Origin: an uncultured Eubacteriales bacterium
GTDB lineage: Bacteria; Bacillota; Clostridia; Lachnospirales; Lachnospiraceae
Length of the DNA stretch: 40,225 bases
Direction of reading: 5' to 3'
Assembly (NCBI GenBank): GCA_949289145.1
Contig: CASEML010000141.1
Location: 1-40,225, forward strand
The notes under the pieces are model-generated. The model did no database searches. It was not told the origin of the DNA and worked only from the letters and a program-made list of their open reading frames with translations. Both the position numbers and the translations under genes were made by a program. This document shows, one piece after another, positions 10,938 through 40,004 of the stretch. The first letter of the stretch is position 1; each line of letters begins with the position of its first letter.

Positions 10938-10966
10938 TTTAGGAATTGGATGAGGTGAGATGAAAA

Positions 10967-17787: not shown

Positions 17788-19200
17788 ATGTATAAAATTA
17801 TTAAAAAACTAAAATTAAATAAGAGTGGTCCTAATTGGTTAGAATATTTATTTCCGGTTTTGTTATGGGGGATATGGATGATTTTATATTCATATATTGA
17901 TTTACGCAGTCTAACCATTTGGTCTACTACATTATTGGACTGTCTGGTAGACGGAAATTTATATGATTTTTATGAGATTGTACATGAAAATATTCACGGT
18001 ACCCCACATCAATATTGTGGATATAATTATATATCAATTATTCCATGGGCAATATGGAATATACCAATTTGGCTGATACAGCGTTTCCTTCATATAGAGA
18101 TTTTAGAAAATGTTTGGTTATTATTATGGTCACATTTATTTTTAGTTGTACTTTTTGCTGTTATAGTATATATTTCAAAAAAAATAGTAGAAATTTTTAT
18201 AGATGATAAAGAAAGAACAGCATGGAATTCCTATTTAATTTTTACATTTCCATTTGCGTTTTTTGGTGTAGTTTTAGCGGGGCAGTCGGATATTATCATA
18301 ATATTTGCAGCAGTTTTGGCAGTGTATTTTCTATTGAAGGATAAACAATGGATTTTTATTATGATTATGTCAGTTGCCATTGCTGCAAAGCCATTTTTTA
18401 TTTTTGCATATATAGCAGTTATATTATTGATTGAAAAAAATCTTATAAAAATACTATTAAAGGCTGCGGCTAGTATGGTAGTTACACTGTTATTTCAACT
18501 GATTTACGCAAATGCACCCATGTATGCAGAATCATATGCAGCAGGAACAGGAAATTCAATCATCCAAAAAACTTTTGCCAGTGGAATCGATGCTAATATC
18601 ACATATCAGGCACCGTTGGTTGCTATTGGACTGGTGGTTATTTATTTTGTGGCCTATTGTATATCTTATGAACAGACAAAAGAGAAAAAGTATTATATTA
18701 TTTATATGATGGTTGCACCAATGCTTGTATATTTTGCGTTTGCTCATTATGAGTTTTATAGAATGATTTATTTGGCGCCATTTTTAATGATACTCATTAC
18801 AATTAATTCAAAAATATACAGGCTTAATGTTATATTGGAAACAGTGCTGTCTGTCACAGGGACTTTTCTTATGATATATTATCGTTGGACTGCTTCGGTA
18901 AGCTATTTTAATTCTTCGGTAGCCAAAGCATTTGGAATGCAGCGGAGTGGAGTAAAGTATGATAATTTATATGATTTACTTGTAATGAAAATAAAAGATA
19001 TTTCCATGTATCAGAACGTTGCAGCTGGTATTTTTGTTACAGCCATAGGCATCCTTTTGCTTATTAATATTCCGGGAGTCACAAAAAGAATCAATCAACC
19101 GGTAGAGAAATGTGAGAGATATCTATACTGGCTGAATACGGTGGTTTTGTATACTATGATGGGAATTCTGCTGTTGTGCAGTTTTAATTGGATTCCATAG
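17788..19200 (+). CDS. Polytopic membrane protein, GT-C/GT87-like mannosyltransferase-type candidate
   Basis: A 470-residue membrane protein with about 11 hydrophobic segments and little soluble sequence. After helix one comes YIDLRSLTIW (D38), then DGNLYDFYEIVHENIHG and YISIIPWAIWNIPIWL. That pattern recalls polyprenyl-phosphate-sugar dependent transferases of the GT87/PIG-M kind. A mid-protein AAKPFFIFAYIAVILL also fits. The call is by architecture. The ribosome site AGGAG (17770-17774) is 13 bases from ATG 17788, longer than usual, so translation may be modest. The gene is very AT-rich, more than its neighbours. It has its own promoter upstream and leads into the aminotransferase after 34 bp. 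Confidence 0.75.
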   Translation: MYKIIKKLKLNKSGPNWLEYLFPVLLWGIWMILYSYIDLRSLTIWSTTLLDCLVDGNLYDFYEIVHENIHGTPHQYCGYNYISIIPWAIWNIPIWLIQRFLHIEILENVWLLLWSHLFLVVLFAVIVYISKKIVEIFIDDKERTAWNSYLIFTFPFAFFGVVLAGQSDIIIIFAAVLAVYFLLKDKQWIFIMIMSVAIAAKPFFIFAYIAVILLIEKNLIKILLKAAASMVVTLLFQLIYANAPMYAESYAAGTGNSIIQKTFASGIDANITYQAPLVAIGLVVIYFVAYCISYEQTKEKKYYIIYMMVAPMLVYFAFAHYEFYRMIYLAPFLMILITINSKIYRLNVILETVLSVTGTFLMIYYRWTASVSYFNSSVAKAFGMQRSGVKYDNLYDLLVMKIKDISMYQNVAAGIFVTAIGILLLINIPGVTKRINQPVEKCERYLYWLNTVVLYTMMGILLLCSFNWIP

Positions 19201-19234
19201 TAGAAAGCGAGATAGAGAAGAAAGAAGGAAAATT

Positions 19235-20365
19235 ATGATTAATTTTAATGTACCTCCATACGTAGGAAATGAATTAAAATACATTGAAGAAGCTATTCAG
19301 CATCAAAAAATATGTGGAGACGGTATATTTACAAAAAAATGTTCTGAATGGTTTGAAAAGCACATGAATGCGAAAAAGGTATTGTTGACTACCTCCTGTA
19401 CACACGCTACAGAAATGGCAGCATTGCTGTTGGATTTAAAACCGGGTGATGAGGTGATTATGCCGGCGTATACTTTTGTGTCCACTGCAGATGCTTTTGT
19501 GATGAGAGGTGCTGTCCCTGTATTTGTGGATATAAGACCGGATACCATGAATATTGATGAAAATTTAATTGAAGCAGCAATTACAGAAAGAACAAAAGCC
19601 ATTGTGCCGGTACATTATGCCGGGGTTTCCTGTGAAATGGATAAAATTATGGAAATCGCCAGAAAATATAATTTGGCGGTGGTAGAAGATGCGGCACAGG
19701 GAGTTATGTCTTCTTATAAGGGAAAGGCATTAGGAACAATTGGTGATTATGGCTGTTTTAGTTTTCATGAAACTAAGAATTATTCTATGGGCGAAGGAGG
19801 CGCATTATTAATAAATGATGAAGCCCATGTGGAAATGGCAGAAATTATAAGAGAAAAAGGTACAAACAGAGCGAAATTTTTTCGCGGACAAATTGATAAA
19901 TATACATGGATGGAAGCAGGTTCTTCCTACTTGCCAAGTGACATGAATGCAGCTTATCTTTGGGCACAGTTGGAAATAGCAGATGAAATTAATGAGAAAC
20001 GCTTAAGAATATGGAATACATATTATGAAAAGCTAAAAGAACTAAAGGAAAAAAAAGTAATTGAACTTCCTTGTGTTCCGGAGGGATGTATTCATAATGG
20101 GCATATGTTTTACATTAAGGCAAAGGATTTAGAAGAAAGAACCAGGTTGATTTCATATTTAAAAGAAAAAGAAATTATGGCAGTATTTCATTATATACCT
20201 TTGCATACAGCACCGGCAGGTTTGAAATACGGAAGATTTCATGGAGAAGATAAATATACGACAAGAGAAAGTGAACGCCTGGTAAGACTTCCAATGTATT
20301 ATGCTTTAGAAGTAGAACAGGCAGAGAAAATAGCGGAAACTGTAAAAGAATTTTATGCTGAATAA
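19235..20365 (+). CDS. rffA: dTDP-4-amino-4,6-dideoxygalactose transaminase (RffA/WecE-like)
   Basis: A 376-residue PLP-dependent sugar aminotransferase of the DegT/DnrJ/EryC1 family. It closely follows the enterobacterial WecE/RffA pattern along its whole length: FNVPPYVGNELKYIEEAI, CGDGIFTKKC, GDEVIMPAYTFVSTADAFV, FVDIRPDTMNIDE, PVHYAGVSCEMD, FSFHETKNYSMGEGGA, EKGTNRAKFFRGQIDKYTW, SSYLPSDMNAAYLWAQLE and AVFHYIPLHTAPAG. PLP lysine is K181 and the pyridine-ring aspartate D152. The family makes dTDP-4-amino-4,6-dideoxygalactose from dTDP-4-keto-6-deoxyglucose and glutamate. The ketosugar can come from RmlB at the right end of this window. AAGGA precedes ATG 19235. MaoC and GNAT genes follow within 15 bp each. 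Confidence 0.92.
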   Translation: MINFNVPPYVGNELKYIEEAIQHQKICGDGIFTKKCSEWFEKHMNAKKVLLTTSCTHATEMAALLLDLKPGDEVIMPAYTFVSTADAFVMRGAVPVFVDIRPDTMNIDENLIEAAITERTKAIVPVHYAGVSCEMDKIMEIARKYNLAVVEDAAQGVMSSYKGKALGTIGDYGCFSFHETKNYSMGEGGALLINDEAHVEMAEIIREKGTNRAKFFRGQIDKYTWMEAGSSYLPSDMNAAYLWAQLEIADEINEKRLRIWNTYYEKLKELKEKKVIELPCVPEGCIHNGHMFYIKAKDLEERTRLISYLKEKEIMAVFHYIPLHTAPAGLKYGRFHGEDKYTTRESERLVRLPMYYALEVEQAEKIAETVKEFYAE

Positions 20366-20379
20366 AAGGATTAGAAAAA

Positions 20380-20796
20380 ATGACTAAGTATAGTATAAGG
20401 AATTTGGAAGTAGGTCAGGGCGTAGAAAAAAAATTTTTTATTGATGAAGAGTTAGGAAAAAAATTCGCCGAGATTTCAGGCGATTTTAATCCCGTGCATT
20501 TGAATGACGACTATGCTAAAAAGACAATGTTTAGAGGAAAAATAGCGCATGGTATGCTGCTTGGAAGTTTTATTTCAGGTATATTGGGAAATGAATTTCC
20601 AGGAGAGGGAACCATATACTTAAAACAAGATTTTAGTTTTCTTAAACCTGTACGATATGGGGACTGCATAAAGATTTGCGTAGTGGTGAACAGTATTGAT
20701 GAAGAAAAATCAAGAGTAGAATTACAAACAGACTGCTATAACCAAAAAGGAGAAAAAGTACTTTTGGGAAAAGCATTAGTGATGTTACCGCAGTAG
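20380..20796 (+). CDS. MaoC-family (R)-specific enoyl-CoA hydratase-like protein
   Basis: A 138-residue single hotdog domain. It has the hydratase-2 signature AEISGDFNPVHLNDDYA, with the catalytic pair D35 and H40 intact, then FRGKIAHGMLLGSFISGILG and LKQDFSFLKPVRYGDCI. Family members hydrate trans-2-enoyl-CoA to (R)-3-hydroxyacyl-CoA. This is unexpected inside a sugar pathway. It sits 14 bp after the aminotransferase and 11 bp before an acyltransferase, so I infer that it shapes the acyl group placed on the aminosugar, for instance (R)-3-hydroxybutyryl from crotonyl-CoA. A role as an acyl-ACP handler or thioesterase-like hotdog is an alternative. AAGGA precedes ATG 20380. Confidence 0.87.
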   Translation: MTKYSIRNLEVGQGVEKKFFIDEELGKKFAEISGDFNPVHLNDDYAKKTMFRGKIAHGMLLGSFISGILGNEFPGEGTIYLKQDFSFLKPVRYGDCIKICVVVNSIDEEKSRVELQTDCYNQKGEKVLLGKALVMLPQ

Positions 20797-20807
20797 GAGG
20801 AAAGAAA

Positions 20808-21728
20808 ATGTCAAAAATATCATTTGTAGATAATAATTTTCAACTGGTAGACAGCTTTTTGAAAAGAGATTATAAAGATTTGGCTGAAAAAATCAGGAAA
20901 GAGAAAGATAAGCTTACATTTTATAAACAGCAGGAAGATATGCTTGGCGGTTATCAGATAACTTCCAATGAGCCATTAACTGCATTATTTGGCAAGCCTT
21001 TTTTTGTAGTGCGTTTTGTGTTCGCTAACATTGATAGTATGCATAATAAAGCACAAGAAAATGATATCATAGAGATATTTAGACATTTAAAGCAGCTAAT
21101 AGAAACTCAAAAGGGATATTATAATATTCGTATTCCTTCCCATATTGTAGATGCGGTAAAGGCATATAATACCGTTTTTCAAGGTGGTTATTTTTGTGGC
21201 GGTACGGTAGAGGAAGTAATTTCAGGAAAGAAAGTAGAAATTCGTTTAAGGGACGGAATCAAAGTATTTTTTGCTGATTTAGAATATATTAATCAACATA
21301 AAGAAGAATTAATGGAAATGACTTTTGAATCATTTAAAAGTTATCAAGGTCAATATCATATTTCACCGGTAACAGAAGAAAAGGCCGGTAAAATATACGA
21401 AAATTGGATAAAGTACAGTTTGGAACATTGTGAAGGCAAAGAGGTGGTAATTGCAGAATATCAGGGGATTCCAATTGGATTTGTTACTATTGCGGAAAAA
21501 GAAAATGCAGTAGAAGGTGTTTTATCAGCAGTAAAAGAAGAGTACCGGAAGTTTGGTGCATATCGTGCTATGATTTCTTATATTGTAAATTACGGAGCAG
21601 AAAAAGGAAAAAGCTTTATTACCAGCACTCAATTTGATAATTTTATTGTTCAAGGTGTTTGGAATTCAATAGGTTTAAAACCTTTTTATTCTATTTATAA
21701 TTTTCATATAGAGAAAAATGAGGAATAA
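20808..21728 (+). CDS. GNAT-family sugar N-acyltransferase, probably acting on dTDP-4-amino sugar
   Basis: A 306-residue protein. Residues 1 to about 150 are a divergent N-terminal domain; about 165-306 form a GNAT fold. Visible parts: EVVIAEYQGIPIGFVTI (central strands), EYRKFGAYRAMISYIV (CoA pyrophosphate loop region) and TSTQFDNFIVQGVWNSIGLK near the end. The last motif resembles that of dTDP-fucosamine acetyltransferase (WecD/RffC), which also follows the RffA step. This protein is about 80 residues longer than the enterobacterial enzyme. Given the MaoC gene directly upstream, the acyl donor may be a hydroxyacyl-CoA, not acetyl-CoA (inference). AGGAGGAAAG precedes ATG 20808. Confidence 0.83.
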   Translation: MSKISFVDNNFQLVDSFLKRDYKDLAEKIRKEKDKLTFYKQQEDMLGGYQITSNEPLTALFGKPFFVVRFVFANIDSMHNKAQENDIIEIFRHLKQLIETQKGYYNIRIPSHIVDAVKAYNTVFQGGYFCGGTVEEVISGKKVEIRLRDGIKVFFADLEYINQHKEELMEMTFESFKSYQGQYHISPVTEEKAGKIYENWIKYSLEHCEGKEVVIAEYQGIPIGFVTIAEKENAVEGVLSAVKEEYRKFGAYRAMISYIVNYGAEKGKSFITSTQFDNFIVQGVWNSIGLKPFYSIYNFHIEKNEE

Positions 21729-21732
21729 ACAG

Positions 21733-22683
21733 ATGGAAAAAGTATCGTTTGTCATACCGTGCTATTGCTCGGAAAAAAGTCTGGAAAGTGTGGTTGATGA
21801 AATTCAGACTGCCATGGAAAAAATTGAAAGATATGATTATGAGATTATTTTAGTAGAGGATGCATCTCCAGATCATACATGGGAAACCATAGAAAAGATT
21901 GTTTCAGGGAATCCTAAGGTTCAGGGAATCAGCTTTGCTAAAAATTTTGGGCAACATTCAGCCTTGATGGCAGGGTTTCATCAGATTCAGGGAGAAATCG
22001 TAGTATGTCTGGATGATGATGGTCAGACACCGGCATGTGAAGTAGAAAAGTTTTTAGAGTTGATTGAACAAGGTGCCGATGTGGTATATGCATCCTATGA
22101 AAATAAAATGCATGGAGGATTTCGAAACTGGGGCAGTCAATTAAATAGTAAAATGGCAGAGTGGCTTTTAGGAAAACCAAAGGAACTGTATGTGTCTAGT
22201 TATTTTGCTGCACGAAGATTCGTGATAGACGAAGTGATAAAATATGAAAATTCCTATCCTTATGTATTGGGACTGGTATTAAGAACTACAAAAAGAATTG
22301 TGAATGTAGAGGTTGATCATAGAGAACGGATGCAGGGACAGTCAGGGTATTCTATGAAGAAATTATTGGGGCTTTGGATTAATGGTTTTACTTCCTTTTC
22401 TGTAAAACCTTTGCGTATGGTCACATATGGTGGAATGATTGTGGCAGTCATAGGAGTTCTGTATGCTATATGGACAATTATCAAGAAGCTTTTTAACTCG
22501 ATGGCACCAGTAGGCTGGAGTTCAACCATGGCAGTTATGTTAATCTTAGGAGGCACCGTTTTATTTGTATTAGGAATGATAGGAGAATATATCGGAAGAA
22601 TTTATATTAGCATTAATAATGCCCCTCAATATGTAATAAGAAAGAAAGCTGTCCATGAAGGTGAAGGAGAGAAAGCTAAATGA
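21733..22683 (+). CDS. ArnC-like undecaprenyl-phosphate glycosyltransferase (GT2)
   Basis: A 316-residue GT2 enzyme with two C-terminal membrane helices (about 235-257 and 270-292). Motifs are VSFVIPCYCSEKSL, ILVEDASPDHTWE, FAKNFGQHSALMAGF, CLDDDGQTPACEV and RMQGQSGYSMKKL, a pattern close to ArnC. Such enzymes move a sugar from a nucleotide to undecaprenyl phosphate at the inner membrane face. I choose ATG 21733, with AGGA 8 bases upstream; the in-frame ATG 21718 would overlap the GNAT gene by 11 bases and has only a weak site. Position suggests that it loads the N-acylated 4-amino-4,6-dideoxygalactose. Its stop overlaps the next start (ATGA), coupling it to the flippase pair. Confidence 0.88.
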   Translation: MEKVSFVIPCYCSEKSLESVVDEIQTAMEKIERYDYEIILVEDASPDHTWETIEKIVSGNPKVQGISFAKNFGQHSALMAGFHQIQGEIVVCLDDDGQTPACEVEKFLELIEQGADVVYASYENKMHGGFRNWGSQLNSKMAEWLLGKPKELYVSSYFAARRFVIDEVIKYENSYPYVLGLVLRTTKRIVNVEVDHRERMQGQSGYSMKKLLGLWINGFTSFSVKPLRMVTYGGMIVAVIGVLYAIWTIIKKLFNSMAPVGWSSTMAVMLILGGTVLFVLGMIGEYIGRIYISINNAPQYVIRKKAVHEGEGEKAK

Positions 22684-23042
22684 ATTCAATAAGAGGAAAT
22701 TATAAATCTTATATTATGTTGCAGATTATAATTGCAGTATATTCTCTCAGCAGTGTGTGTTCAAAATTTGCTGCAGGGCAGGAAGTTATGTCATGGAAAT
22801 TTTTACTTTTGTATGGAGCCATACTTTTTCTGCTTGCGGTTTATGCAGTTGTTTGGCAGCAGGTTTTAAAAAAGATACCATTAGTTACTGCGTATGCAAA
22901 TAAATCTATTACGGTAATCTGGGGGATGATTTGGGGAATTTTAATATGGCATGAGAAGGTTGCGGTCAATCATATAATAGGGGCAGTAATCATTATGCTT
23001 GGCGTATATATAATTGCAACGGAAGAAAAGGAAAAAGTATGA
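22680..23042 (+). CDS. Small EamA/SMR-like membrane carrier, ArnE-type partner
   Basis: A 120-residue protein of four membrane segments in the EamA/small-multidrug-resistance fold: KSYIMLQIIIAVYSLSSVCS, FLLLYGAILFLLAVYAV, TVIWGMIWGILIW and HIIGAVIIMLGVYIIA. ArnE/ArnF pairs flip undecaprenyl-phosphate aminoarabinose. This gene sits immediately after an ArnC-like synthase with a 4-base ATGA overlap, and the next gene has the same size and fold with another ATGA overlap, so a heterodimeric flippase is the natural reading. Sequence alone cannot exclude a drug exporter. AAGGAGAG lies upstream of ATG 22680. Confidence 0.82.
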   Translation: MNSIRGNYKSYIMLQIIIAVYSLSSVCSKFAAGQEVMSWKFLLLYGAILFLLAVYAVVWQQVLKKIPLVTAYANKSITVIWGMIWGILIWHEKVAVNHIIGAVIIMLGVYIIATEEKEKV

Positions 23043-23371
23043 AATATATTTTAGTGTTTTTAGTGTCTGTTTTTATATCATCATTATCACAGGTATTACT
23101 AAAGGTCAGTGCTGGCGAACAACACTCCAGTATATGGAAGGAATATTTAAATATACGGATTATTTGTGCTTATGGCTTGTTTTTTCTGGCAACGTTAATT
23201 ACTATATTTGCTTATAGGTATGTTTCATTATCCATGGGGGCTGTTTTAGAGGCAAGTGGCTACATTTTTGTGGCAATATTAGGCAGAGTGGTGCTGAAAG
23301 AAAAGATTGGAAGGAAAAAGCTCATTGGATTAGGAATGATTTTAGCGGGTATTGTGATTTTTAATTTATAG
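23039..23371 (+). CDS. Small EamA/SMR-like membrane carrier, ArnF-type partner
   Basis: A 110-residue four-helix EamA/SMR protein. ISSLSQVLLKVSAGE marks the first helix, with the family's typical small-residue/LLK pattern. IICAYGLFFLATLITIFAYRYV, MGAVLEASGYIFVAILGRVVL and LIGLGMILAGIVIFNL follow. It overlaps the preceding carrier by ATGA and is best read as the second half of an ArnE/F-like flippase moving the lipid-linked sugar made by the 21733 enzyme. The ribosome site (GGAAAAAG) lies inside the upstream gene. Substrate is inferred from context. Confidence 0.82.
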   Translation: MKYILVFLVSVFISSLSQVLLKVSAGEQHSSIWKEYLNIRIICAYGLFFLATLITIFAYRYVSLSMGAVLEASGYIFVAILGRVVLKEKIGRKKLIGLGMILAGIVIFNL

Positions 23372-23390
23372 CAATATAAAGGAAATGGTT

Positions 23391-24443
23391 ATGCTTAGTG
23401 ATAAAATATTTTCAAAAAGGAATACCAATATAATAAAAGGAATTGCTGTTTTAATTTTATGCTGGCATCATTTATTTTGGAGAAATATACAAGTGCCTGT
23501 AAATTTGGAAACGGCAGGCATTATGGAAGTACTGGTACCCCTGACAAAAGTATGCGTGGCATTATTTACGATGTTAAGCGGGTATGGAATCAACGAAAGT
23601 TATAAAAAAAGTAACAAATCATATGCAAACTTTACTTTTTTACATGTGAAAAAACTGCTGATAAATTACTGGTGGATTTATGTTCCCGTTTTTATATTAA
23701 GCTTTTGGTTACATGCAGGAGGAACTCCTATGCACATTTATGGTCAGGGAGCGCTTGGCATAAGGAATTTTCTTTTGGATTTTTTGGGGTTACGTGCCAT
23801 GATTTATTCTCCGACTTTAAATAATACATGGTGGTATATGGAAGCAGCTATTATTTTCTATCTTTGTTTCCCGATATTTCACAAGGCATTGAACAAGGTT
23901 CCGGAGATTGTCATTGGAGTCAGCGCGATACCTGTGCTTCTTGCAAGTGTAAATATATTTTGGGATGCATTGATTACAACAGACAGGGAATTGTTTTATG
24001 TGTTTCCATTTGTTGTGGGGATGGAATTGTCGCGAAGAGAAATATTAAATAAAATGGTACGATATTGTGAAAGAAATAGGAGAGAATTTATAATGTTATC
24101 CTGCTCCTTTTTTGTGATTCTAGGTGTGATGCGGACACAAATTTCGTATATTGCAGATACTTTTTATGCTTTTTCTATTATATCCATTGGTATAGGAATT
24201 GCATCATTTGAAAATATAGTTTTGAAGGCGCTGGAATTTTTAGGAAAACATTCTATGAATATATTTTTAATACACTCTATGGTATACTATTATTTTACAA
24301 GCGGAAGAAAACTTTTTGATCGTATTGATATGGTGCTTCTCAAATACTTGTTGCTGATTGTTATTTGTCTGGGAAGTTCCATCATAATTGAAACCATAAA
24401 AAAATATGTACGCAGATTACGGACAAACAGCTTATCGGAGTGA
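23391..24443 (+). CDS. Acyltransferase 3 family membrane O-acyltransferase
   Basis: A 350-residue polytopic protein of the OafA-like acyltransferase-3 family. The N-terminal motif is NIIKGIAVLILCWHHLFW, with the catalytic-type histidine at the end of helix one. Later come VALFTMLSGYGI, NNTWWYMEAAIIFYLCFPIF and HSMNIFLIHSMVYYYF. Family members O-acylate (usually acetylate) surface polysaccharides across the membrane. ATG 23391 has AAAGGA 7 bases before it, better than ATG 23385, which is too close. It lies 19 bp after the flippase pair, so it may modify the sugar those genes export. No extra SGNH domain is fused. Confidence 0.85.
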   Translation: MLSDKIFSKRNTNIIKGIAVLILCWHHLFWRNIQVPVNLETAGIMEVLVPLTKVCVALFTMLSGYGINESYKKSNKSYANFTFLHVKKLLINYWWIYVPVFILSFWLHAGGTPMHIYGQGALGIRNFLLDFLGLRAMIYSPTLNNTWWYMEAAIIFYLCFPIFHKALNKVPEIVIGVSAIPVLLASVNIFWDALITTDRELFYVFPFVVGMELSRREILNKMVRYCERNRREFIMLSCSFFVILGVMRTQISYIADTFYAFSIISIGIGIASFENIVLKALEFLGKHSMNIFLIHSMVYYYFTSGRKLFDRIDMVLLKYLLLIVICLGSSIIIETIKKYVRRLRTNSLSE

Positions 24444-24460
24444 GTCATTAGGAGGAAATT

Positions 24461-25411
24461 ATGGATAAAATTGCGGTATTAATACCATGCTATAATGAAA
24501 GTAAGACAATTGAAAAGGTGGTTACAGATTTTAAAAAGGCATTACCGGAAGCTGTAATTTATGTTTATGACAATAATTCTTCAGATGATACTGCAGAAAT
24601 TGCCAGAAAAGCAGGAGCAGTGGTACGCCACGAATATATGCAGGGAAAAGGAAATGTTATTCGCAGAATGTTTCGTGAAATCAATGCAGAGGCATATGTT
24701 ATGACAGATGGTGATGATACATATCCGGCAGAGTGTGCACGAGAAATGGTCGATAAAATTCTGGAACGGAATGCAGATATGGTAGTAGGGGACAGGCTGT
24801 CCTCTACTTACTTTTCCGAAAATAAAAGACCATTCCACAATTTTGGCAATACGCTCGTAAGAAAGTGCATTAATGTTCTGTTTAAAAATGATATTAAGGA
24901 TATCATGACGGGATACAGAGCTTTCAGTTATGAATTTGTGAAAACCTTTCCGGTACTTTCCAAGGGATTTGAAATTGAAACTGAGATGAGTATTCATGCA
25001 GTTGATAAGAATATGTTTGTAGAAAATGTAGTAGTCAATTACAGAGACAGACCTGAGGGAAGTGAATCAAAGCTGAATACCTATTCAGATGGGTTTAAGG
25101 TGCTTAAGACCATTGCCAGATTGTATAGAACTTATAAGCCCATTGGCTTTTTTGGCCTTATTGCACTGGTTTTGGCAGTGATTGCTGCATTATTGTTTAT
25201 ACCGGTGGGCATTGCTTATATGAATACAGGGCTGGTACCAAGATTTCCCACATTGATCACCTGTGGCTTTATTATGATTACTGCAATTCAGTCCTTTTTT
25301 TCAGGATTAATTTTACAGACTATTTTGCAGAAAAACCGACAGGATTTTGAAGCCGAATTATGCAGGGCAACAAAACAGAAGCAGGAAATGCTGAAGGAAA
25401 TTTCAGAGTAG
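24461..25411 (+). CDS. GT2 dolichyl/undecaprenyl-phosphate glycosyltransferase-like protein
   Basis: A 316-residue protein. Its N-terminal GT-A domain has IAVLIPCYNESKTIEKVV, YVYDNNSSDDTAEIA and TDGDDTYPAE (acidic metal site). It then has DIMTGYRAFSYEFVKTFPVL, KGFEIETEMSIHA and two C-terminal membrane helices (about 225-247 and 262-287). The helix pair and the GYRAF/EIETEM motifs fit the DPM1/dolichyl-phosphate-glucose synthase type, which makes polyprenyl-phosphate sugars. AGGAGGAAA precedes ATG 24461. It is one of four such enzymes in a row. Sugar unknown. Confidence 0.87.
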   Translation: MDKIAVLIPCYNESKTIEKVVTDFKKALPEAVIYVYDNNSSDDTAEIARKAGAVVRHEYMQGKGNVIRRMFREINAEAYVMTDGDDTYPAECAREMVDKILERNADMVVGDRLSSTYFSENKRPFHNFGNTLVRKCINVLFKNDIKDIMTGYRAFSYEFVKTFPVLSKGFEIETEMSIHAVDKNMFVENVVVNYRDRPEGSESKLNTYSDGFKVLKTIARLYRTYKPIGFFGLIALVLAVIAALLFIPVGIAYMNTGLVPRFPTLITCGFIMITAIQSFFSGLILQTILQKNRQDFEAELCRATKQKQEMLKEISE

Positions 25412-25428
25412 AATTTCATTGTAGAATC

Positions 25429-25437
25429 TGATATACT
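25429..25437 (+). promoter_or_regulatory. Possible extended -10 promoter element
   Basis: TGATATACT in the 76-bp gap before the 25488 gene reads as an extended -10 (TG, one base, TATACT). I see no convincing -35 hexamer at 16-18 bp, so activity is uncertain. Confidence 0.25.
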
Positions 25438-25487
25438 ACAAAAAGCAGAGGTATTTAGGAATAAGAGAAAATAGGAGGGCTAGTGGA

Positions 25488-26459
25488 ATGCGTCCTTGTT
25501 TATATATGGTGATTCCATGCTACAATGAAGAAAAAGTATTGCCCATTACAAGTGAAATTTTTCTGAAAAAGATGAAGGAACTTGTAGAAACAGGAAAGGT
25601 AAGTGAAGAAAGTAAAATTTTGTTTGTAAATGACGGAAGTCGGGATCGTACATGGGAAATTATTAAGGAATTATCCCAAAAGGAGAAATATATTATCGGA
25701 ATCTGCCAGAGCAGGAACAGAGGTCATCAAAATGCTGTATTGGCGGGACTTATGGAGGCAAAAGATAAATGCGATATTACGATCTCCATAGATTGTGACG
25801 GGCAGGATGATGTAAATGCCATGAATCATATGGTGGAAGAATATATAAATGGAGCAGAAATTGTGTATGGCGTCCGGTCCAAAAGAGAAACAGATACTTT
25901 CTTTAAACGTTTTACTGCGGAATCATTTTATAAACTGTTAAATGCTATGGGAGCAGAAGTCATATATAACCATGCAGATTATCGTCTGGTCAGCAGTAAG
26001 GTGCTGAAGGAACTGGCAAATTATAAAGAAGTAAATCTTTTCTTAAGGGGAATGTTTCCACTGGTAGGATTCAAAAGTACAAGTGTATATTATGAACGTG
26101 CTGAGAGAATAGCGGGAGTAAGTCATTATTCATTAAGTAAAATGCTAACATTGGCTTTTGATGGGATTACAAGTCTCAGTATAAAGCCACTGAGGATCAT
26201 TACAGGCGTAGGATTTATTGTAGCATTATTAAGCTTCATTGCTGCGCTTAAGTTCTTATTTGATAAGTTTTTTGGATATACGGTAGACGGCTGGGCCAGT
26301 CTTGTCTGTATCCTTTGTATGGTAAGTGGAATACAAATGATCTGTATGGGAATTTTAGGAGAGTATGTGGGAAAAATATATATGGAAGTCAAGCAGCGCC
26401 CTCGTTATATTATCAGTGAGCGGACATATGACAACAAAGAGGATGAGGAGACGGAATAA
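25488..26459 (+). CDS. GtrB/DPM-like undecaprenyl-phosphate glycosyltransferase (GT2)
   Basis: A 323-residue GT2 enzyme. Motifs are YMVIPCYNEEKVLPI, FVNDGSRDRTWEII, CQSRNRGHQNAVLAGL, SIDCDGQDDVNAMNHMV and ERIAGVSHYSLSKML. Two C-terminal membrane helices follow (about 238-258 and 268-292). This is the layout of GtrB/CsbB enzymes, which place a sugar on undecaprenyl phosphate for use outside the cell. GGAGGG lies 10 bases before ATG 25488. It probably works with one of the flippases and one of the GT-C-like proteins nearby; the pairing cannot be decided here. Confidence 0.88.
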   Translation: MRPCLYMVIPCYNEEKVLPITSEIFLKKMKELVETGKVSEESKILFVNDGSRDRTWEIIKELSQKEKYIIGICQSRNRGHQNAVLAGLMEAKDKCDITISIDCDGQDDVNAMNHMVEEYINGAEIVYGVRSKRETDTFFKRFTAESFYKLLNAMGAEVIYNHADYRLVSSKVLKELANYKEVNLFLRGMFPLVGFKSTSVYYERAERIAGVSHYSLSKMLTLAFDGITSLSIKPLRIITGVGFIVALLSFIAALKFLFDKFFGYTVDGWASLVCILCMVSGIQMICMGILGEYVGKIYMEVKQRPRYIISERTYDNKEDEETE

Positions 26460-26533
26460 AATAGTTAAGGGCTATTTGCCGGACTTTATCGGATATATCA
26501 ACCTTACAGATTAGACAATAGCGGAGGGAACAT

Positions 26534-27496
26534 ATGAAGTTATCACTGGTAGTACCTTGTTATAATGAGGAGGACAACGTAGAGTTGTTTTATGAAGAAG
26601 TGAGAAAATGCTTTCAGGGAAAAATAGATGAGTATGAATTAATCTTTGTTAACGACGGAAGCAAAGATAATACCAGGAAGAAACTAAAACAAATTTATCT
26701 AAACAGCGGCAAGCAGCATGTAAAGGTTATTGGATTTTCCAGAAATTTTGGAAAAGAGGCGGCTATTTACGCTGGCTTGCAGCAGGCTGAGGGAGAGTAT
26801 ACAACGGTGATTGATGCAGACCTGCAGCAGCGGCCGGAAGTAGTTTTGCAGATGGTACAGGTGTTAGATGAGAATGAAGATTATGACTGTGTAGCCGCTT
26901 TTCAGGAAAAGCGCAGCGAAGGAAGGTTATTAACGTTTTTTAAGAATGTGTTCTACAAAATTATTAATAAAGTGGCAGACACAGAGTTTATTTCCGGTGC
27001 CAGCGATTTTCGTACCTTTCGTGCCAATATGCGGTCGGCAATCTTAAGTATGAGCGAATATCACAGATTTTCCAAGGGGATATTTTCCTGGGTAGGATTT
27101 GAAACAAAATTTATTCCTTATGTGGCAGAAAAGAGAAACGCAGGCACTACGAAATGGTCCTTTAAAAAATTATTTAAGTATGGAATGGATGGAATCATTT
27201 CATTTTCAGTGGCACCTTTAAAGCTGGCCACATGGGCGGGAACTATTTGTGCTGAATTGGCTTTACTGTATATGGTGATTATTTTTCTTCAGAAGATATT
27301 TTTTGGCATTGATGTTCCGGGACATGCTACTGTAGTAACATTGATCTTGTTTATTGGCGGTGTGCAATTGTTTTTTCTAGGAATTTTGGGAGAGTATATT
27401 TCTAAAATGTATATTCAGGAGAAAAAGCGACCGATTTACATAACCAGAGAAACATTTGGAATTGAAAAACCAAGGGAAGAAAGTGAAAACCAATAG
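26534..27496 (+). CDS. GtrB/DPM-like undecaprenyl-phosphate glycosyltransferase (GT2)
   Basis: A 320-residue paralogue of the previous protein. Motifs are LSLVVPCYNEEDNVELFY, FVNDGSKDNTRKKL, FSRNFGKEAAIYAGL, TVIDADLQQRPEVV, SGASDFRTF and RNAGTTKWSFKKLFKYG. Two membrane helices occupy about 236-256 and 268-290. It has the classic GtrB pattern (AxYAGL, DADLQ.P, W/YS.KKL). A GtrA-family flippase lies two genes downstream, its usual partner. GGAGGG precedes ATG 26534. The 74-bp gap upstream shows no clear promoter. Sugar unknown (glucose is common in this family). Confidence 0.9.
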   Translation: MKLSLVVPCYNEEDNVELFYEEVRKCFQGKIDEYELIFVNDGSKDNTRKKLKQIYLNSGKQHVKVIGFSRNFGKEAAIYAGLQQAEGEYTTVIDADLQQRPEVVLQMVQVLDENEDYDCVAAFQEKRSEGRLLTFFKNVFYKIINKVADTEFISGASDFRTFRANMRSAILSMSEYHRFSKGIFSWVGFETKFIPYVAEKRNAGTTKWSFKKLFKYGMDGIISFSVAPLKLATWAGTICAELALLYMVIIFLQKIFFGIDVPGHATVVTLILFIGGVQLFFLGILGEYISKMYIQEKKRPIYITRETFGIEKPREESENQ

Positions 27497-27512
27497 AAAG
27501 AGAGCGGTAAGA

Positions 27513-28337
27513 ATGTCTATGGAAGAACAATATTCCGTTTTAATGTCCGTGTATTACAAAGAAAAAGCTGAATATTTAGAGCAAAGTATGGAAAGCATCT
27601 GGAATCAGTCCTGCCCTACGGATAACTTTGTGCTGGTGTGTGATGGAAAGCTGACAAAGGAGTTAGAGCGGGTAATCCTACAGCAGAAACAAAAATATAA
27701 GGACAGGCTGACAGTGGTTTCTTTGAAGGAAAATATTGGGCTTGGCAAAGCGTTAAACCAGGGAATGGAATATTGTAAGCACAATTTGATTGCACGTATG
27801 GACAGTGATGATATCAGCAAGCCGCAGCGGATGGAAAAACAGCTGCAGGCTATGAAGAAGCATAATGTTGTGATTGTAGGCAGCGCAGTGGAGGAATTTT
27901 CCGGAACTACAGAGCAGATCATGGCAGTTAGAAAAATGCCGGAGACAAGTGAAGAGATAAGGAAATTTGCGGCAAAAAGGAATCCTTTTAATCATCCTAG
28001 CATTATGTATCGGAAAAATGTGGTGGAAGCAGTAGGGGGATATTTGGATTGTCCTTTCTTTGAAGATTACTATTTGTGGGGGCGTATACTAAAAGCCGGA
28101 TATGATGGGTATAACATACATGAAAGTCTTTTATACATGCGGGCAGGAGAGGATATGTACCAGCGCAGAGGGGGCTTTCATTATGCAAAGCTTGCGGTGG
28201 CTTTTCGGTGGAAACTTCATAAAATGGGATTGTCCAGCTTGCAGGACTTTATCATATCGGCTGGTGGACAGGTATTGGTGTGTTTGATTCCCAATAAACT
28301 GCGGACAGGATTTTATAGAAAATTTTTGAGAAAATAA
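27513..28337 (+). CDS. Family 2 glycosyltransferase, AmsE-like
   Basis: A 274-residue GT2 enzyme without obvious membrane helices. Motifs are YSVLMSVYYKEKAEYLEQSM, LVCDGKLT (binding-site Asp), NIGLGKALNQGM, ARMDSDDISKPQRMEKQL (acidic motif) and FNHPSIMYRKNVVEAVGGY. The pattern matches short glycosyltransferases of the AmsE type from exopolysaccharide loci. ATG 27513, with a weak GAGAGCGG upstream, is preferred over an in-frame TTG at 27456 that would overlap the previous gene and lacks a ribosome site. ATG 27519 is also possible. Confidence 0.87.
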   Translation: MSMEEQYSVLMSVYYKEKAEYLEQSMESIWNQSCPTDNFVLVCDGKLTKELERVILQQKQKYKDRLTVVSLKENIGLGKALNQGMEYCKHNLIARMDSDDISKPQRMEKQLQAMKKHNVVIVGSAVEEFSGTTEQIMAVRKMPETSEEIRKFAAKRNPFNHPSIMYRKNVVEAVGGYLDCPFFEDYYLWGRILKAGYDGYNIHESLLYMRAGEDMYQRRGGFHYAKLAVAFRWKLHKMGLSSLQDFIISAGGQVLVCLIPNKLRTGFYRKFLRK

Positions 28338-28350
28338 TGGAGTTGCTATC

Positions 28351-28791
28351 ATGAAAAAAATACAAGAGCTGTTTTTGAAATATAAAGAAGTAATCATGTA
28401 TTTGATTTTTGGAGTGTGCACCACTGCAGTGAATTGGATTATTTATACTGTGATCGTGGTGTTGGGTGAGGAAGTGAATCTGACTGTTGCCAATATCATT
28501 GCATGGGTCGGGGCAGTTGCTTTTGCTTATATTACCAATAAATTATGGGTATTTGAAAGTAAAAGCTGGAATCCTAAAATTGTGCGGAAGGAATTGGGAA
28601 TGTTTCTGAGCGCAAGAATATTTTCAGGAATCTTTGAAATCGGTTTATTTCCCGTTTTGATGTGGATGGGCATGAACCAATCCATTTTCGGTGTGGAAGG
28701 TATGCTGGCTAAGATTGTAGTCGGCGTGCTGGTAATTGTTTTAAATTATATTTTTAGTAAACTATTGGTTTTTAGGAAAAAGGAAGCCTAG
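28351..28791 (+). CDS. GtrA-family membrane protein (lipid-linked sugar flippase)
   Basis: A 146-residue GtrA-like protein with four membrane segments: EVIMYLIFGVCTTAVNWIIYT, ANIIAWVGAVAFAYITNKLW, ARIFSGIFEIGLFPVLM and AKIVVGVLVIVLNYIFSKLLVF. FGVCTTAVNW, TNKLWVFESK and the closing NYIFSKLLVFR are typical. GtrA proteins are thought to flip undecaprenyl-phosphate sugars made by GtrB enzymes, two of which lie upstream (25488 and 26534). It begins 13 bp after the preceding gene with GGAG as ribosome site. Confidence 0.9.
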   Translation: MKKIQELFLKYKEVIMYLIFGVCTTAVNWIIYTVIVVLGEEVNLTVANIIAWVGAVAFAYITNKLWVFESKSWNPKIVRKELGMFLSARIFSGIFEIGLFPVLMWMGMNQSIFGVEGMLAKIVVGVLVIVLNYIFSKLLVFRKKEA

Positions 28792-28819
28792 TAAAGCAGT
28801 GATGGAAATGGAGGAAGCT

Positions 28820-29590
28820 ATGAAAGTTGTCATTTTAGCAGGAGGTTTTGGTACACGGATCAGTGAGGAAAGCCATTTAAAGCCTAAGCCAATGATAGAG
28901 ATTGGGGAACAACCGATCTTATGGCATATTATGAAACATTATTCTGCCTATGGGTTTCATGAATTTATTATATGCGGTGGTTATAAGCAGCATATGATCA
29001 AGCAGTATTTTGCAGATTATTATTTATATAAAAGTGATGTGACTTTTGACTTTGCAAATGGAAACAATATGCAGATACATGACAATGGGGCAGAGCCGTG
29101 GAAAGTAACCATTGTGGATACTGGCTATGCAACCATGACCGGCGGCCGTATTAAGCGGATTCAAAAATATGTGGGTGAAGAAACCTTTATGATGACTTAT
29201 GGAGATGGACTTAGCGATGTTTCTGTGGATAAGCTGGTAGAATTTCACAAACAAAGTGGAAAAATAGCAACGATTACGGCGGTGCAGCCGGGAGGACGTT
29301 TTGGGGCGCTGGATATTGACAGCGTGGACCAAATCCATGGTTTTGCGGAAAAAAAGAAGGAAGACGGTGGCTGGATCAATGCAGGCTTTATGGTGCTGAA
29401 TCCGGAAATTTTTGATTATATCAAAGATGATACTACGGTATTTGAAAAAGAGCCTTTAGAGCGATGTGCGGCCGAGGGACAGCTTATGGCTTACCGTCAT
29501 GAAGGGTTCTGGCAGTGTATGGATACCATGCGTGATAAAAAGCAGTTAGAGGATTTATGGAACAGCGGGCAGGCGCCCTGGAAGCATTAA
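28820..29590 (+). CDS. rfbF: Glucose-1-phosphate cytidylyltransferase
   Basis: A 256-residue enzyme that forms CDP-glucose from glucose 1-phosphate and CTP. Visible motifs: MKVVILAGGFGTRISEES (nucleotide loop), KPKPMIEIGEQPILWHIMKH, FIICGGYKQHMIKQYF, TYGDGLSDV, GGWINAGFMVLNPE and GFWQCMDTMRDKKQLEDLW. Length and order match RfbF. GGAGGAA lies close before ATG 28820; upstream in-frame starts (GTG 28799, ATG 28802, ATG 28808) would only add a few unaligned residues. It is followed 20 bp later by its pathway partner, CDP-glucose dehydratase. Confidence 0.94.
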   Translation: MKVVILAGGFGTRISEESHLKPKPMIEIGEQPILWHIMKHYSAYGFHEFIICGGYKQHMIKQYFADYYLYKSDVTFDFANGNNMQIHDNGAEPWKVTIVDTGYATMTGGRIKRIQKYVGEETFMMTYGDGLSDVSVDKLVEFHKQSGKIATITAVQPGGRFGALDIDSVDQIHGFAEKKKEDGGWINAGFMVLNPEIFDYIKDDTTVFEKEPLERCAAEGQLMAYRHEGFWQCMDTMRDKKQLEDLWNSGQAPWKH

Positions 29591-29610
29591 ATAGAGAAAA
29601 GGTGGAGAAA

Positions 29611-30672
29611 ATGCAGGAATTTTATCAGGGAAAAAAGGTATTGGTCACTGGACATACCGGATTTAAAGGGACATGGCTGTGCAAGATGTTACTGCAGCTG
29701 GGGGCAGAGGTCTATGGATATTCTTTAGAACCGCCTACGAATCCAAGCCTTTATGAGATTTGCGGCATAGACAGGCAGATGGTTTCAGAAATAGGCGATA
29801 TCAGGGATTTAACACATTTGAAAGTATTTTTTGATAAAGTACAGCCGGAAATCGTTCTGCACTTGGCAGCACAGCCTATTGTAAGGGAAAGCTATAAAAA
29901 TCCTGTATATACTTATGAAACAAATGTGATGGGAACAGTGAATATACTGGAATGTGTTAGAACTACAGCAAGTGTAAAAAGTTTTTTGAATGTAACTACG
30001 GATAAGGTTTATGAAAACAAGGAATGGCAGTGGGGCTACCGGGAAAATGAGCCGCTGGATGGATTTGACCCCTATTCTAACAGCAAAAGTTGTTCTGAGC
30101 TGGTGACCCATAGTTATAAAAATAGTTTTTTTGCAGACAAACCAGTGGCCATTTCAACGGCAAGAGCAGGCAACGTGATTGGAGGCGGTGATTTTGCTGT
30201 GGATCGGATCATTCCTGACTGTATTCGGGCGGCACAGGCAAAGAAGCCTATTATAGTTCGTAATCCTTACTCTACCAGACCTTATCAGCATGTGTTAGAG
30301 CCTTTATATGTATATCTTTATATTGCTATGATGCAGGAACAGGATAGGAAGTATGCAGATTATTATAATGTGGGACCGGATGAATGTGACTGTGTAACTA
30401 CCGGAGAGCTGGTGGATTTGTTCTGCAGCAAATGGCAGGAAGGGCTTTCATGGAAAAATCTATCGGAAGAAAATGCAGTACACGAGGCTAATTTTTTGAA
30501 ATTGGACTGCAGTAAACTGAAAGCAGTTTTGGGCTGGAAACCGGCATTTCATGTGGAAGAAGCTGTTGAACTGACGGTAGATTTCAGTAGGAAGTACTTG
30601 GCAGGGCAGGATATAAATGAATGTATGGAGCAGCAAATTCAGATGATTTTTGAAAAAGTCTTACAAAAATGA
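29611..30672 (+). CDS. rfbG: CDP-glucose 4,6-dehydratase
   Basis: A 353-residue short-chain dehydrogenase-type enzyme that converts CDP-glucose to CDP-4-keto-6-deoxyglucose. It starts KKVLVTGHTGFKGTWLCKML (NAD binding, with the TGHTGFKG variant typical of RfbG). Next come LHLAAQPIVRESYKNP, TTDKVYENKEW (Thr-Asp-Lys in place of Thr-Asp-Glu, usual in this family), DPYSNSKSCSELV (catalytic Tyr and Lys) and STRPYQHVLEPL. ATG 29611, behind GGTGGAG, is preferred over an upstream in-frame start at 29557 that overlaps rfbF. No RfbH-type dehydrase, reductase or epimerase for the product is in this window. Confidence 0.93.
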   Translation: MQEFYQGKKVLVTGHTGFKGTWLCKMLLQLGAEVYGYSLEPPTNPSLYEICGIDRQMVSEIGDIRDLTHLKVFFDKVQPEIVLHLAAQPIVRESYKNPVYTYETNVMGTVNILECVRTTASVKSFLNVTTDKVYENKEWQWGYRENEPLDGFDPYSNSKSCSELVTHSYKNSFFADKPVAISTARAGNVIGGGDFAVDRIIPDCIRAAQAKKPIIVRNPYSTRPYQHVLEPLYVYLYIAMMQEQDRKYADYYNVGPDECDCVTTGELVDLFCSKWQEGLSWKNLSEENAVHEANFLKLDCSKLKAVLGWKPAFHVEEAVELTVDFSRKYLAGQDINECMEQQIQMIFEKVLQK

Positions 30673-38927: not shown

Positions 38928-40004
38928 ATGAGAACATATTTAGTTACCGGAGGAGCAGGATTTATCGGCTCTAATTATATTCATTACATGTTTCGCAAGT
39001 ATGGAGATGAAATCAGAATCATTAATGTGGACTGCTTAACATATGCAGGAAATCTGGAAAATTTAAAAGATATTGAACATAGAGATAATTATACATTTAT
39101 CAAAGCAGATATCTGCGATAAAGAAGCTATTGAAAAAATCTTTGCAGAACATGATATTGACAGAGTAGTACATTTTGCGGCAGAAAGTCATGTAGACAGA
39201 AGTATCCGTAACCCAGAAGTGTTTGTACAGACAAATGTGTTAGGTACTCTGGTTATGCTGAATGCAGCAAAAAAGGCGTGGGAAAATGAGGATGGAACAT
39301 ATAAGGAAAACAAAAAGTTTCTGCATGTTTCCACGGATGAAGTGTATGGTTCTTTAGAGGAAGGGGATACTTACTTCTATGAAACAACACCATTAGACCC
39401 GCACAGCCCATATTCAGCAAGTAAGGCATCCTCTGATATGCTGGTTAAGGCATATATGGACACTTATAAGTTTCCGGCCAATATTACAAACTGCTCTAAT
39501 AATTATGGACCATATCAGTTCCCGGAAAAATTGATTCCGTTGATGATTAACAATGCATTACAGGGAAAAAAATTACCGGTATACGGTGACGGCAAAAATG
39601 TACGTGACTGGTTATACGTGGACGATCATGCAAAAGCCATTGATATGGTGCAGGAACAGGGAAAATTAGGTGAGCGTTATAATATTGGCGGACACAATGA
39701 AAAGCAGAATATTGAAATTATTGAAATTATTCTTGAAACTTTATTGGAAATTCTGCCGGAAAGTGATCCAAGACGTGCAAATATCGGCAGACATTTAATC
39801 ACTTATGTGGAAGACCGTAAGGGACATGACAGAAGATACGCGATTGCACCGGACAAGATTAAGGCAGATATTGGCTGGTATCCGGAAACTATGTTTAAGG
39901 ATGGAATTAAGCTTACTATTAAATGGTTCTTAGAAAATGAAGAATGGATGAAGAATGTAACCAGTGGGGATTACCAGAAATACTATCAGGAAATGTACAA
40001 GTAA
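38928..40004 (+). CDS. rmlB: dTDP-glucose 4,6-dehydratase
   Basis: A 358-residue extended short-chain dehydrogenase that turns dTDP-glucose into dTDP-4-keto-6-deoxyglucose. Motifs are YLVTGGAGFIGSNYIHYM (NAD binding), NVDCLTYAGNLENL, FAAESHVDRSI, STDEVYGSL (T136-D137-E138), SPYSASKASSDML (Y162, K166), NNYGPYQFPEKLIPL and DGKNVRDWLYVDDH, matching RmlB over its full length. GGAGGAA precedes ATG 38928, with its own promoter. The product is the substrate expected for the RffA-like aminotransferase at 19235. RmlA, RmlC and RmlD are not in the window, so a rhamnose branch cannot be shown here. Confidence 0.96.
   Translation: MRTYLVTGGAGFIGSNYIHYMFRKYGDEIRIINVDCLTYAGNLENLKDIEHRDNYTFIKADICDKEAIEKIFAEHDIDRVVHFAAESHVDRSIRNPEVFVQTNVLGTLVMLNAAKKAWENEDGTYKENKKFLHVSTDEVYGSLEEGDTYFYETTPLDPHSPYSASKASSDMLVKAYMDTYKFPANITNCSNNYGPYQFPEKLIPLMINNALQGKKLPVYGDGKNVRDWLYVDDHAKAIDMVQEQGKLGERYNIGGHNEKQNIEIIEIILETLLEILPESDPRRANIGRHLITYVEDRKGHDRRYAIAPDKIKADIGWYPETMFKDGIKLTIKWFLENEEWMKNVTSGDYQKYYQEMYK

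Follow-up and report, generated by a model that had tools for sequence, protein, structure and literature searches.

A conserved clostridial gene cassette predicted to build, acylate and lipid-load 4-amino-4,6-dideoxygalactose

Several described systems resemble in part a seven-gene cassette (positions 19,235–24,443) in the contig analyzed here, a 40,225-nucleotide stretch from an uncultured bacterium of the Lachnospiraceae (the window; contig C141; the assembly totals 2.93 Mb over 170 contigs and is 88% complete). The anthrose operon antABCD combines an enoyl-CoA hydratase, an aminotransferase and an acyltransferase to make a 3-hydroxyacylated 4-amino sugar; its hydratase is of the crotonase type, 3-hydroxy-3-methylbutyryl is placed on a gluco sugar, and the operon holds no genes for lipid-phosphate loading. 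Viosamine is likewise a gluco isomer, and FdhC and QdhC have a hexapeptide fold, not that of GNAT. The modified viosamine island of Pseudomonas syringae (VioA, VioB, VioS, VioR and an acyl carrier protein, ACP) is described as yielding a dTDP-4-amino-4,6-dideoxyhexose with an N-(3-hydroxy-1-oxobutyl) group (PMC3927599), and FdhC and QdhC as dedicated to (R)-3-hydroxybutanoyl transfer to the dideoxyamino sugars Fuc3N and Qui3N (PMC4869667). N-3-hydroxybutyryl amino sugars and dedicated transferases are thus already known (PMC3927599, PMC4869667, PMC10609480). The acyl donor of WecD is given as acetyl-CoA (PMC7439462), and multi-component transmembrane glycosylation systems (ArnC/ArnEF/ArnT, CsbB/GtcA/YfhO) are described as comprising an undecaprenyl-phosphate-sugar synthase, a small flippase and a GT-C glycosyltransferase (PMC8035078).

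Our favored reading, which we place somewhat on the likely side, is that the window encodes a surface-glycan cassette in which dTDP-4-amino-4,6-dideoxygalactose (dTDP-Fuc4N) would receive an (R)-3-hydroxybutyryl group on its nitrogen; the sugar would next be attached to undecaprenyl phosphate and flipped, and a GT-C enzyme would transfer it. With the WecE/WecD branch of the enterobacterial common antigen pathway it shares the aminotransferase, the nucleotide sugar and a GNAT-type acyltransferase next door; it differs in that this GNAT protein has 306 residues and is accompanied by a MaoC protein, and in that an undecaprenyl-phosphate-sugar synthase takes the place of direct transfer to lipid II. 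Unlike that of the anthrose operon, the hydratase has the MaoC fold (PF01575) and is not of the crotonase type. Whereas the viosamine island includes a KAS III, a ketoreductase and an ACP (PMC3927599), the cassette has a single MaoC hydratase, and none of those three was found among the nine proteins scanned at 17,788–25,411. FdhC and QdhC differ in serving 3-amino sugars, and the available part of their description mentions no hydratase gene (PMC4869667). The three-component systems differ in turn, as the cassette pairs two EamA carriers in place of GtrA and brings its own sugar-building and acylating enzymes. Within the open-licence literature, judged by titles and abstract openings among the papers listed, we found no WecE-MaoC-acyltransferase system, no dedicated MaoC hydratase with a GNAT enzyme in such a pathway and no Fuc4N carrying 3-hydroxybutyryl; most subscription journals lie outside that scope, which makes this weak evidence of absence.

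The initial annotation had described seven adjacent genes, all of which were recovered in that order on the plus strand and assigned to families by Pfam and NCBIfam. They are given here with two further genes of the proposed pathway:

17788..19200, plus strand: multi-transmembrane (multi-TM) protein of 470 residues, about eight TM segments by hydropathy; candidate GT-C enzyme, judged by position
19235..20365, plus strand: WecE/RffA, dTDP-4-dehydro-6-deoxyglucose transaminase (PF01041, TIGR02379, NF008687)
20380..20796, plus strand: MaoC-fold, PhaJ-like (R)-specific enoyl-CoA hydratase (PF01575; nearest structures 5cpg and 1iq6)
20808..21728, plus strand: GNAT acyltransferase of 306 residues with a WecD-like C-terminal domain (PF00583, E 1.4e-4)
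21718..22683 (start perhaps 21733), plus strand: ArnC/GtrB-like polyprenyl-phosphate sugar synthase (PF00535; PDB 9hwj, sll0501)
22680..23042, plus strand: half-size EamA carrier 1 (ArnE-like), putative flippase subunit (PF00892, 3.4e-8)
23039..23371, plus strand: half-size EamA carrier 2, putative flippase subunit (PF00892, 1.4e-8)
23385..24443, plus strand: acyltransferase-3 (AT3) membrane protein, optional later O-acylation (PF01757, 6.6e-23)
38928..40004, plus strand: RmlB, dTDP-glucose 4,6-dehydratase (TIGR01181, 487 bits, cut-off 365)

From WecE to AT3 the successive spacings are 14, 11, −11, −4, −4 and 13 bases, the third becoming +4 with the alternative start of the ArnC-like gene at 21733, a position preceded by GAGGAA. 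WecE starts 34 bases downstream of the multi-TM gene at 17788–19200, which probably also belongs to the unit.

The cassette is real and conserved. An alignment-based scan of named genomes with the GNAT protein returned 25 loci (numbered with the prefix L below); a single-sequence scan of the same genome contigs gave no match, nor did a comparison with plasmids. The aminotransferase-MaoC-GNAT triplet at the center of the initial annotation is present elsewhere in Clostridia: WecE, MaoC, GNAT and the ArnC-like gene are contiguous in seven other loci (L016, L017, L018, L025, L029, L030 and L031), and in five of these (L016, L017, L025, L029 and L031; 45–77% protein identity to the window) both EamA genes follow directly, a six-gene order whose recurrence argues for more than a chance arrangement. 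L015 also has all four genes, together with a one-domain GNAT after WecE and a split AT3 before the ArnC-like gene. WecE lies in the same block as GNAT in 11 of the 25 loci. MaoC is found directly upstream of GNAT in 16 of the 23 that can be evaluated (L035 and L036, which start within GNAT, were excluded), and likewise in L010; neighboring genes hidden by antisense open reading frames were recovered by tblastn, and absence of MaoC refers to the stretch examined (up to 19 kb) and not to the genome. At E 0.001, GNAT matches occur in 8 of 397 genomes of the bacterial family, five of them strong (E 1e-66 or better, own genome included) and three weak. One of five genomes of the genus has the protein, as does one of 398 in a phylum sample at E 1e-20, which is the window's own genome both times.

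Six steps would make up the proposed pathway. Family evidence, which is strong in this case, suggests that WecE converts dTDP-4-keto-6-deoxyglucose, supplied by RmlA and RmlB, into dTDP-Fuc4N (step 1). The PhaJ-like MaoC protein, whose enzyme class is well supported by its sequence relatives, would then hydrate a short enoyl-CoA, presumably and most likely crotonyl-CoA from a butyrate-type pathway, to (R)-3-hydroxybutyryl-CoA (step 2). The GNAT enzyme may pass the acyl group to N4 (step 3), standing in a slot where some other loci have a one-domain GNAT. Family evidence also points to the ArnC-like enzyme as the one that would place the sugar on undecaprenyl phosphate (step 4). The two EamA proteins could flip the product (step 5), and a GT-C enzyme, either that at 17788–19200 or another nearby, could hand the sugar to a wall glycopolymer (step 6).

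Predicted synthesis of dTDP-Fuc4N is the best-founded part of this pathway, because the window's WecE matches TIGR02379 over full length and above the curated cut-off (654 bits against 434.85), scores 656 bits with NF008687, shares 65% sequence identity with E. coli WecE, finds its top solved relative in PDB 4piw (574 bits), and is accompanied by RmlB inside the window and, on another part of the genome, by RmlA (500 bits). Lys181, which we take to be the lysine that binds pyridoxal phosphate, is aligned in the motif HETKNY, and the protein was accordingly assigned to WecE/RffA. WecE matches over cut-off were found in 134 of the 397 family genomes.

A profile of 17 MaoC family rows had its best PDB matches in 5cpg (2.3e-41) and 1iq6 (2.5e-37), both (R)-specific enoyl-CoA hydratases, of which the latter is presumably PhaJ of A. 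caviae. The window's MaoC protein is 41% identical to 1iq6, with the same residues at D35, H40, S66, L69 and V134; the initial annotation had called D35 and H40 intact, and the alignment with the PhaJ catalytic pair confirms this. All 17 rows keep D35, N37, H40 and S66. The chain-length positions reported for A. caviae PhaJ are L65 and V130 (PMC4823750), at which the rows have I (12) or L (5) and V (10) or I (7), respectively. With the catalytic Asp and His kept and (R)-specific hydratases as nearest relatives, the protein can be placed with PhaJ, with a predicted activity on crotonyl-CoA. On contig C121 of the same genome, a run of genes encodes thiolase, enoyl-CoA hydratase (PF00378), 3-hydroxyacyl-CoA dehydrogenase, acyl-CoA dehydrogenase and the beta and alpha subunits of electron transfer flavoprotein, which we take to be the order of a butyryl-CoA operon. 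Among the matches listed, only the thiolase of the six exceeds its NCBIfam cut-off, with near-misses for the short-chain-enoyl-CoA hydratase (375 vs 394 bits) and 3-hydroxybutyryl-CoA dehydrogenase (369 vs 408 bits) models. Given a butyrate-type operon in the host genome, crotonyl-CoA should be available, and it is the likeliest candidate for the MaoC substrate.

The GNAT protein is of an unfamiliar type: PF00583 is its sole Pfam match, and no NCBIfam model matched. By hhalign, residues 168–279 align with residues 96–202 of E. coli WecD (E 2.2e-4, probability 45), and a comparison with PDB sequences placed the N-terminal half nearest to the GNAT protein SACOL1063 (E 0.008), WecD reaching only E 0.34. 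Two GNAT-like domains, the N-terminal one degenerate, are a possible, weakly indicated architecture. The WecD model TIGR02382 had no match at E 0.001 in the genome (88% complete) and exceeded its cut-off in 0 of 60 genomes of the class vs 1 of 14 controls. Identification as WecD was rejected, as the TIGR02382 cut-off is not reached, the C-terminal domain alone aligns and tryptophan stands at the position of Tyr208; an FdhC/QdhC-type hexapeptide-repeat enzyme was likewise rejected on the Pfam and NCBIfam results. The initial annotation had the sugar carry an (R)-3-hydroxyacyl amide; we infer that N4 of Fuc4N may receive such a group, most likely 3-hydroxybutyryl, from the GNAT enzyme.

For the lipid-loading part, the ArnC-like protein, with two TM segments by hydropathy, matched ArnC (PDB 9hwj, 157 bits) and sll0501 (138 bits), and with 189 vs 529 bits it falls outside the ArnC equivalog. 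Both carriers are EamA proteins; the "ArnE/F-like" label describes a role and not membership, as carrier 1 scores 38 bits with ArnE (cut-off 92) and carrier 2 matches best the SMR models EbrA and EbrB, again below cut-off, so that true ArnE/F proteins were rejected. The multi-TM protein at 17788–19200 had no Pfam or NCBIfam match. The window presents a synthase-family protein with two TM segments, EamA carriers and a protein of about eight TM segments without a family match, a layout that by analogy may be that of multi-component transmembrane glycosylation. All 11 relatives with WecE in the block have multi-TM proteins of at least 400 residues no more than about 5 kb from the cassette, as judged by crude hydropathy; of four that were scanned, one, which follows the cassette in L025, was a YfhO protein and three lacked a Pfam match. 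Counting the window, 3 of the 12 loci with WecE in the block have an AT3 homologue nearby, in one case divided between two frames, and AT3 was rejected as a core member for that reason. In L015 the homologue occupies two overlapping frames (9953–11054) and is therefore broken or misassembled there. The earlier interpretation is supported in part: the sequences back synthesis of dTDP-Fuc4N, the coupling of a PhaJ-type hydratase with an acyltransferase, loading onto a lipid phosphate and small carriers, and O-acylation by AT3 proved not to be general.

The MaoC-GNAT pair is also found in a second sugar context. The surroundings of L023, L026, L033 and L034 contain NeuB-like, PseG-like, CMP-transferase, PIG-L, WbqC and GtrII genes, with MaoC beside GNAT in all of these loci except L033. 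L021, L022 and L027 combine MaoC-GNAT with a GtrII protein, other nonulosonate markers not being found on the stretch examined, and the stretch of L024 is too short for a context call. A pair specific to WecE was rejected, since it also occurs in nonulosonic-acid clusters without WecE on the stretch. We constructed a midpoint-rooted GNAT tree of 23 rows, made up of the window and 22 loci (of the 25, L034, L035 and L036 were incomplete and left out, and only the second GNAT of L033 was used). Thirteen rows, 12 with WecE in the block and L028 as the 13th, stand apart from seven GtrII/nonulosonate-type rows with moderate support (88/89 and 91/91), and the nine WecE-plus-MaoC rows are clustered (3 changes, 0 of 500 shuffles as low). 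In a MaoC tree of 17 rows, each of the two labels requires 3 changes, a count as low being reached in 9 of 500 shuffles for WecE and in 19 of 500 for GtrII; the split by context is less clear there than in the GNAT tree. MaoC and GNAT distances are correlated over 16 loci, near-copies among them (r 0.86, a value reached in 0 of 2000 shuffles). The pair appears to be a portable module for acyl decoration, one that goes with the acceptor sugar. A bolder version, which we advance tentatively and hold to be plausible though short of probable, is that in butyrate-producing gut Clostridia MaoC and the 306-residue GNAT form a portable module for N-(R)-3-hydroxybutyrylation, which would draw crotonyl-CoA directly from fermentation, serve two or more unrelated pathways to amino sugars (dTDP-Fuc4N and CMP-nonulosonates), replace N-acetylation and so let the surface sugar record the fermentation state. 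The GNAT family would in this case work with an active site without the WecD tyrosine.

The initial annotation covered neither the MaoC-GNAT pair with nonulosonate genes, nor GNAT relatives without MaoC, nor multi-TM GT-C-like proteins beside the cassette. Tandem GNAT copies without MaoC were seen near a nonulosonate cluster (L012/L033). L038 and L039, among the most distant GNAT relatives, lack MaoC and lie near proteins similar to the window gene at 36842, which resembles a GH25 lysozyme by reading only and had no NCBIfam match.

Several observations weigh against the favored reading. The residue at the Tyr208 position, in WecD presumably the general acid, is tryptophan (Trp285) in 23 of 23 aligned rows, a comparison for which the alignment was extended ungapped six residues past the hhalign block, and no similarity was found between the N- and C-terminal halves of the GNAT protein, which leaves the two-domain reading weak. 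Three loci with WecE and GNAT (L019, L020 and L032) and four more distant GNAT relatives (L033, L037, L038 and L039) have no adjacent MaoC, so GNAT may not need it. In L015 the MaoC-GNAT pair is joined by a one-domain GNAT, with no alignment to the 306-residue family, and the MaoC protein of that locus is an outlier. In L028 a NeuB-like gene is directly upstream of MaoC, WecE being 6.5 kb from GNAT. The three nonulosonate-plus-MaoC rows are not clustered in the GNAT tree (3 changes, 500 of 500 shuffles as low), because fragments and L027 were labelled apart. Finally, the best model for the acyl-CoA dehydrogenase on C121 is acryloyl-CoA reductase, below cut-off.

Among the alternatives, the same logic with another acyl group, either a C5–C6 3-hydroxyacyl or 3-hydroxy-3-methylbutyryl as in anthrose, is rather unlikely. 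PhaJ of A. caviae and PhaJ1 of P. aeruginosa are reported to supply C4–C6 monomers (PMC4823750), and the variation of the MaoC family at its two length positions (I or L, V or I) would suit such a range, but the genome itself offers a route to C4 units, and no search was made for C5, C6 or branched sources. It is unlikely that the product is plain Fuc4NAc, with a GNAT that uses acetyl-CoA like WecD and a MaoC neighbor with another job. Alignment of the C-terminal domain with WecD speaks for this, as do L019, L020 and L032, which have WecE and GNAT and no MaoC on the stretch examined; the frequent placement of MaoC directly upstream of GNAT, in two sugar contexts and with correlated divergence, speaks against it, and a different, one-domain GNAT fills the slot in two other WecE loci. 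Acylation of a target other than N4 of Fuc4N, such as another amine or hydroxyl of the glycan or a nonulosonate, seems more doubtful still: on some stretches that lack WecE the pair does sit beside NeuB, PseG-like, CMP-transferase, PIG-L and WbqC genes, and the extra one-domain GNAT of L015 could serve N4, yet the GNAT rows of WecE loci group apart from the others with moderate support, and the window has no other acyltransferase between WecE and the ArnC-like gene. Least credible, and very improbable in our view, is a MaoC protein working as a dehydratase to give a sugar with an enoyl (crotonyl) or butyryl amide. Enoyl-CoA hydratases are in general reversible, but the crotonase-type hydratase (PF00378) of the butyrate-type operon should already yield crotonyl-CoA, so that a dedicated (R)-hydratase would be needed only for an (R)-3-hydroxy product.

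The position after WecE was compared among the 30 best-scoring WecE loci (own included), 29 of which have a downstream frame within 400 bases; the longest frame was taken, and some may be spurious. It encodes a large membrane protein in nine loci (L050, L058, L061, L065, L067, L071, L072, L074 and L079), an ATP-grasp protein in five (L051, L054, L055, L066 and L077, checked with Pfam in four), a GT2 protein in five, a one-domain GNAT in two (L062 and L068, between WecE and the ArnC-like gene), an FkbM methyltransferase in two, and six single types including the window's MaoC. The slot can therefore hold different enzymes, some probably acylating, of which MaoC-GNAT is one, and this suggests that one sugar is diversified through a slot with changing contents (one-domain GNAT, MaoC-GNAT or ATP-grasp). 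The ATP-grasp group could attach an amino acid to Fuc4N; aspartyl-substituted Fucp4N is listed in a table row for Treponema medium (PMC10609480). The two large membrane proteins scanned of the nine (L050 and L058) had no Pfam match, and the group is a candidate for an unnamed GT-C family.

If the favored reading is true, butyrate-type fermentation would be tied to surface-glycan chemistry in Lachnospiraceae and their kin, the cassette would offer a genetic marker for predicting N-hydroxyacyl sugars from metagenomes, and its enzymes would form a compact trio for hydroxybutyryl amino sugar synthesis.

Elsewhere in the window, positions 21718–28791 encode four GT2 proteins resembling polyprenyl-phosphate sugar synthases, each with two TM segments (at 21718, 24461, 25488 and 26534), and a GtrA protein at 28351 (PF04138), in the midst of several multi-TM proteins; more than one three-component system may lie here side by side. 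RfbF and RfbG (glucose-1-phosphate cytidylyltransferase and CDP-glucose 4,6-dehydratase), both above cut-off, follow at 28799–30672 as a second deoxysugar route. At 3225–5639, an 804-residue protein combines ferredoxin-type, F420-hydrogenase beta and polysaccharide pyruvyl transferase domains, and relatives of it are encoded near the cassette in L025 and L029.

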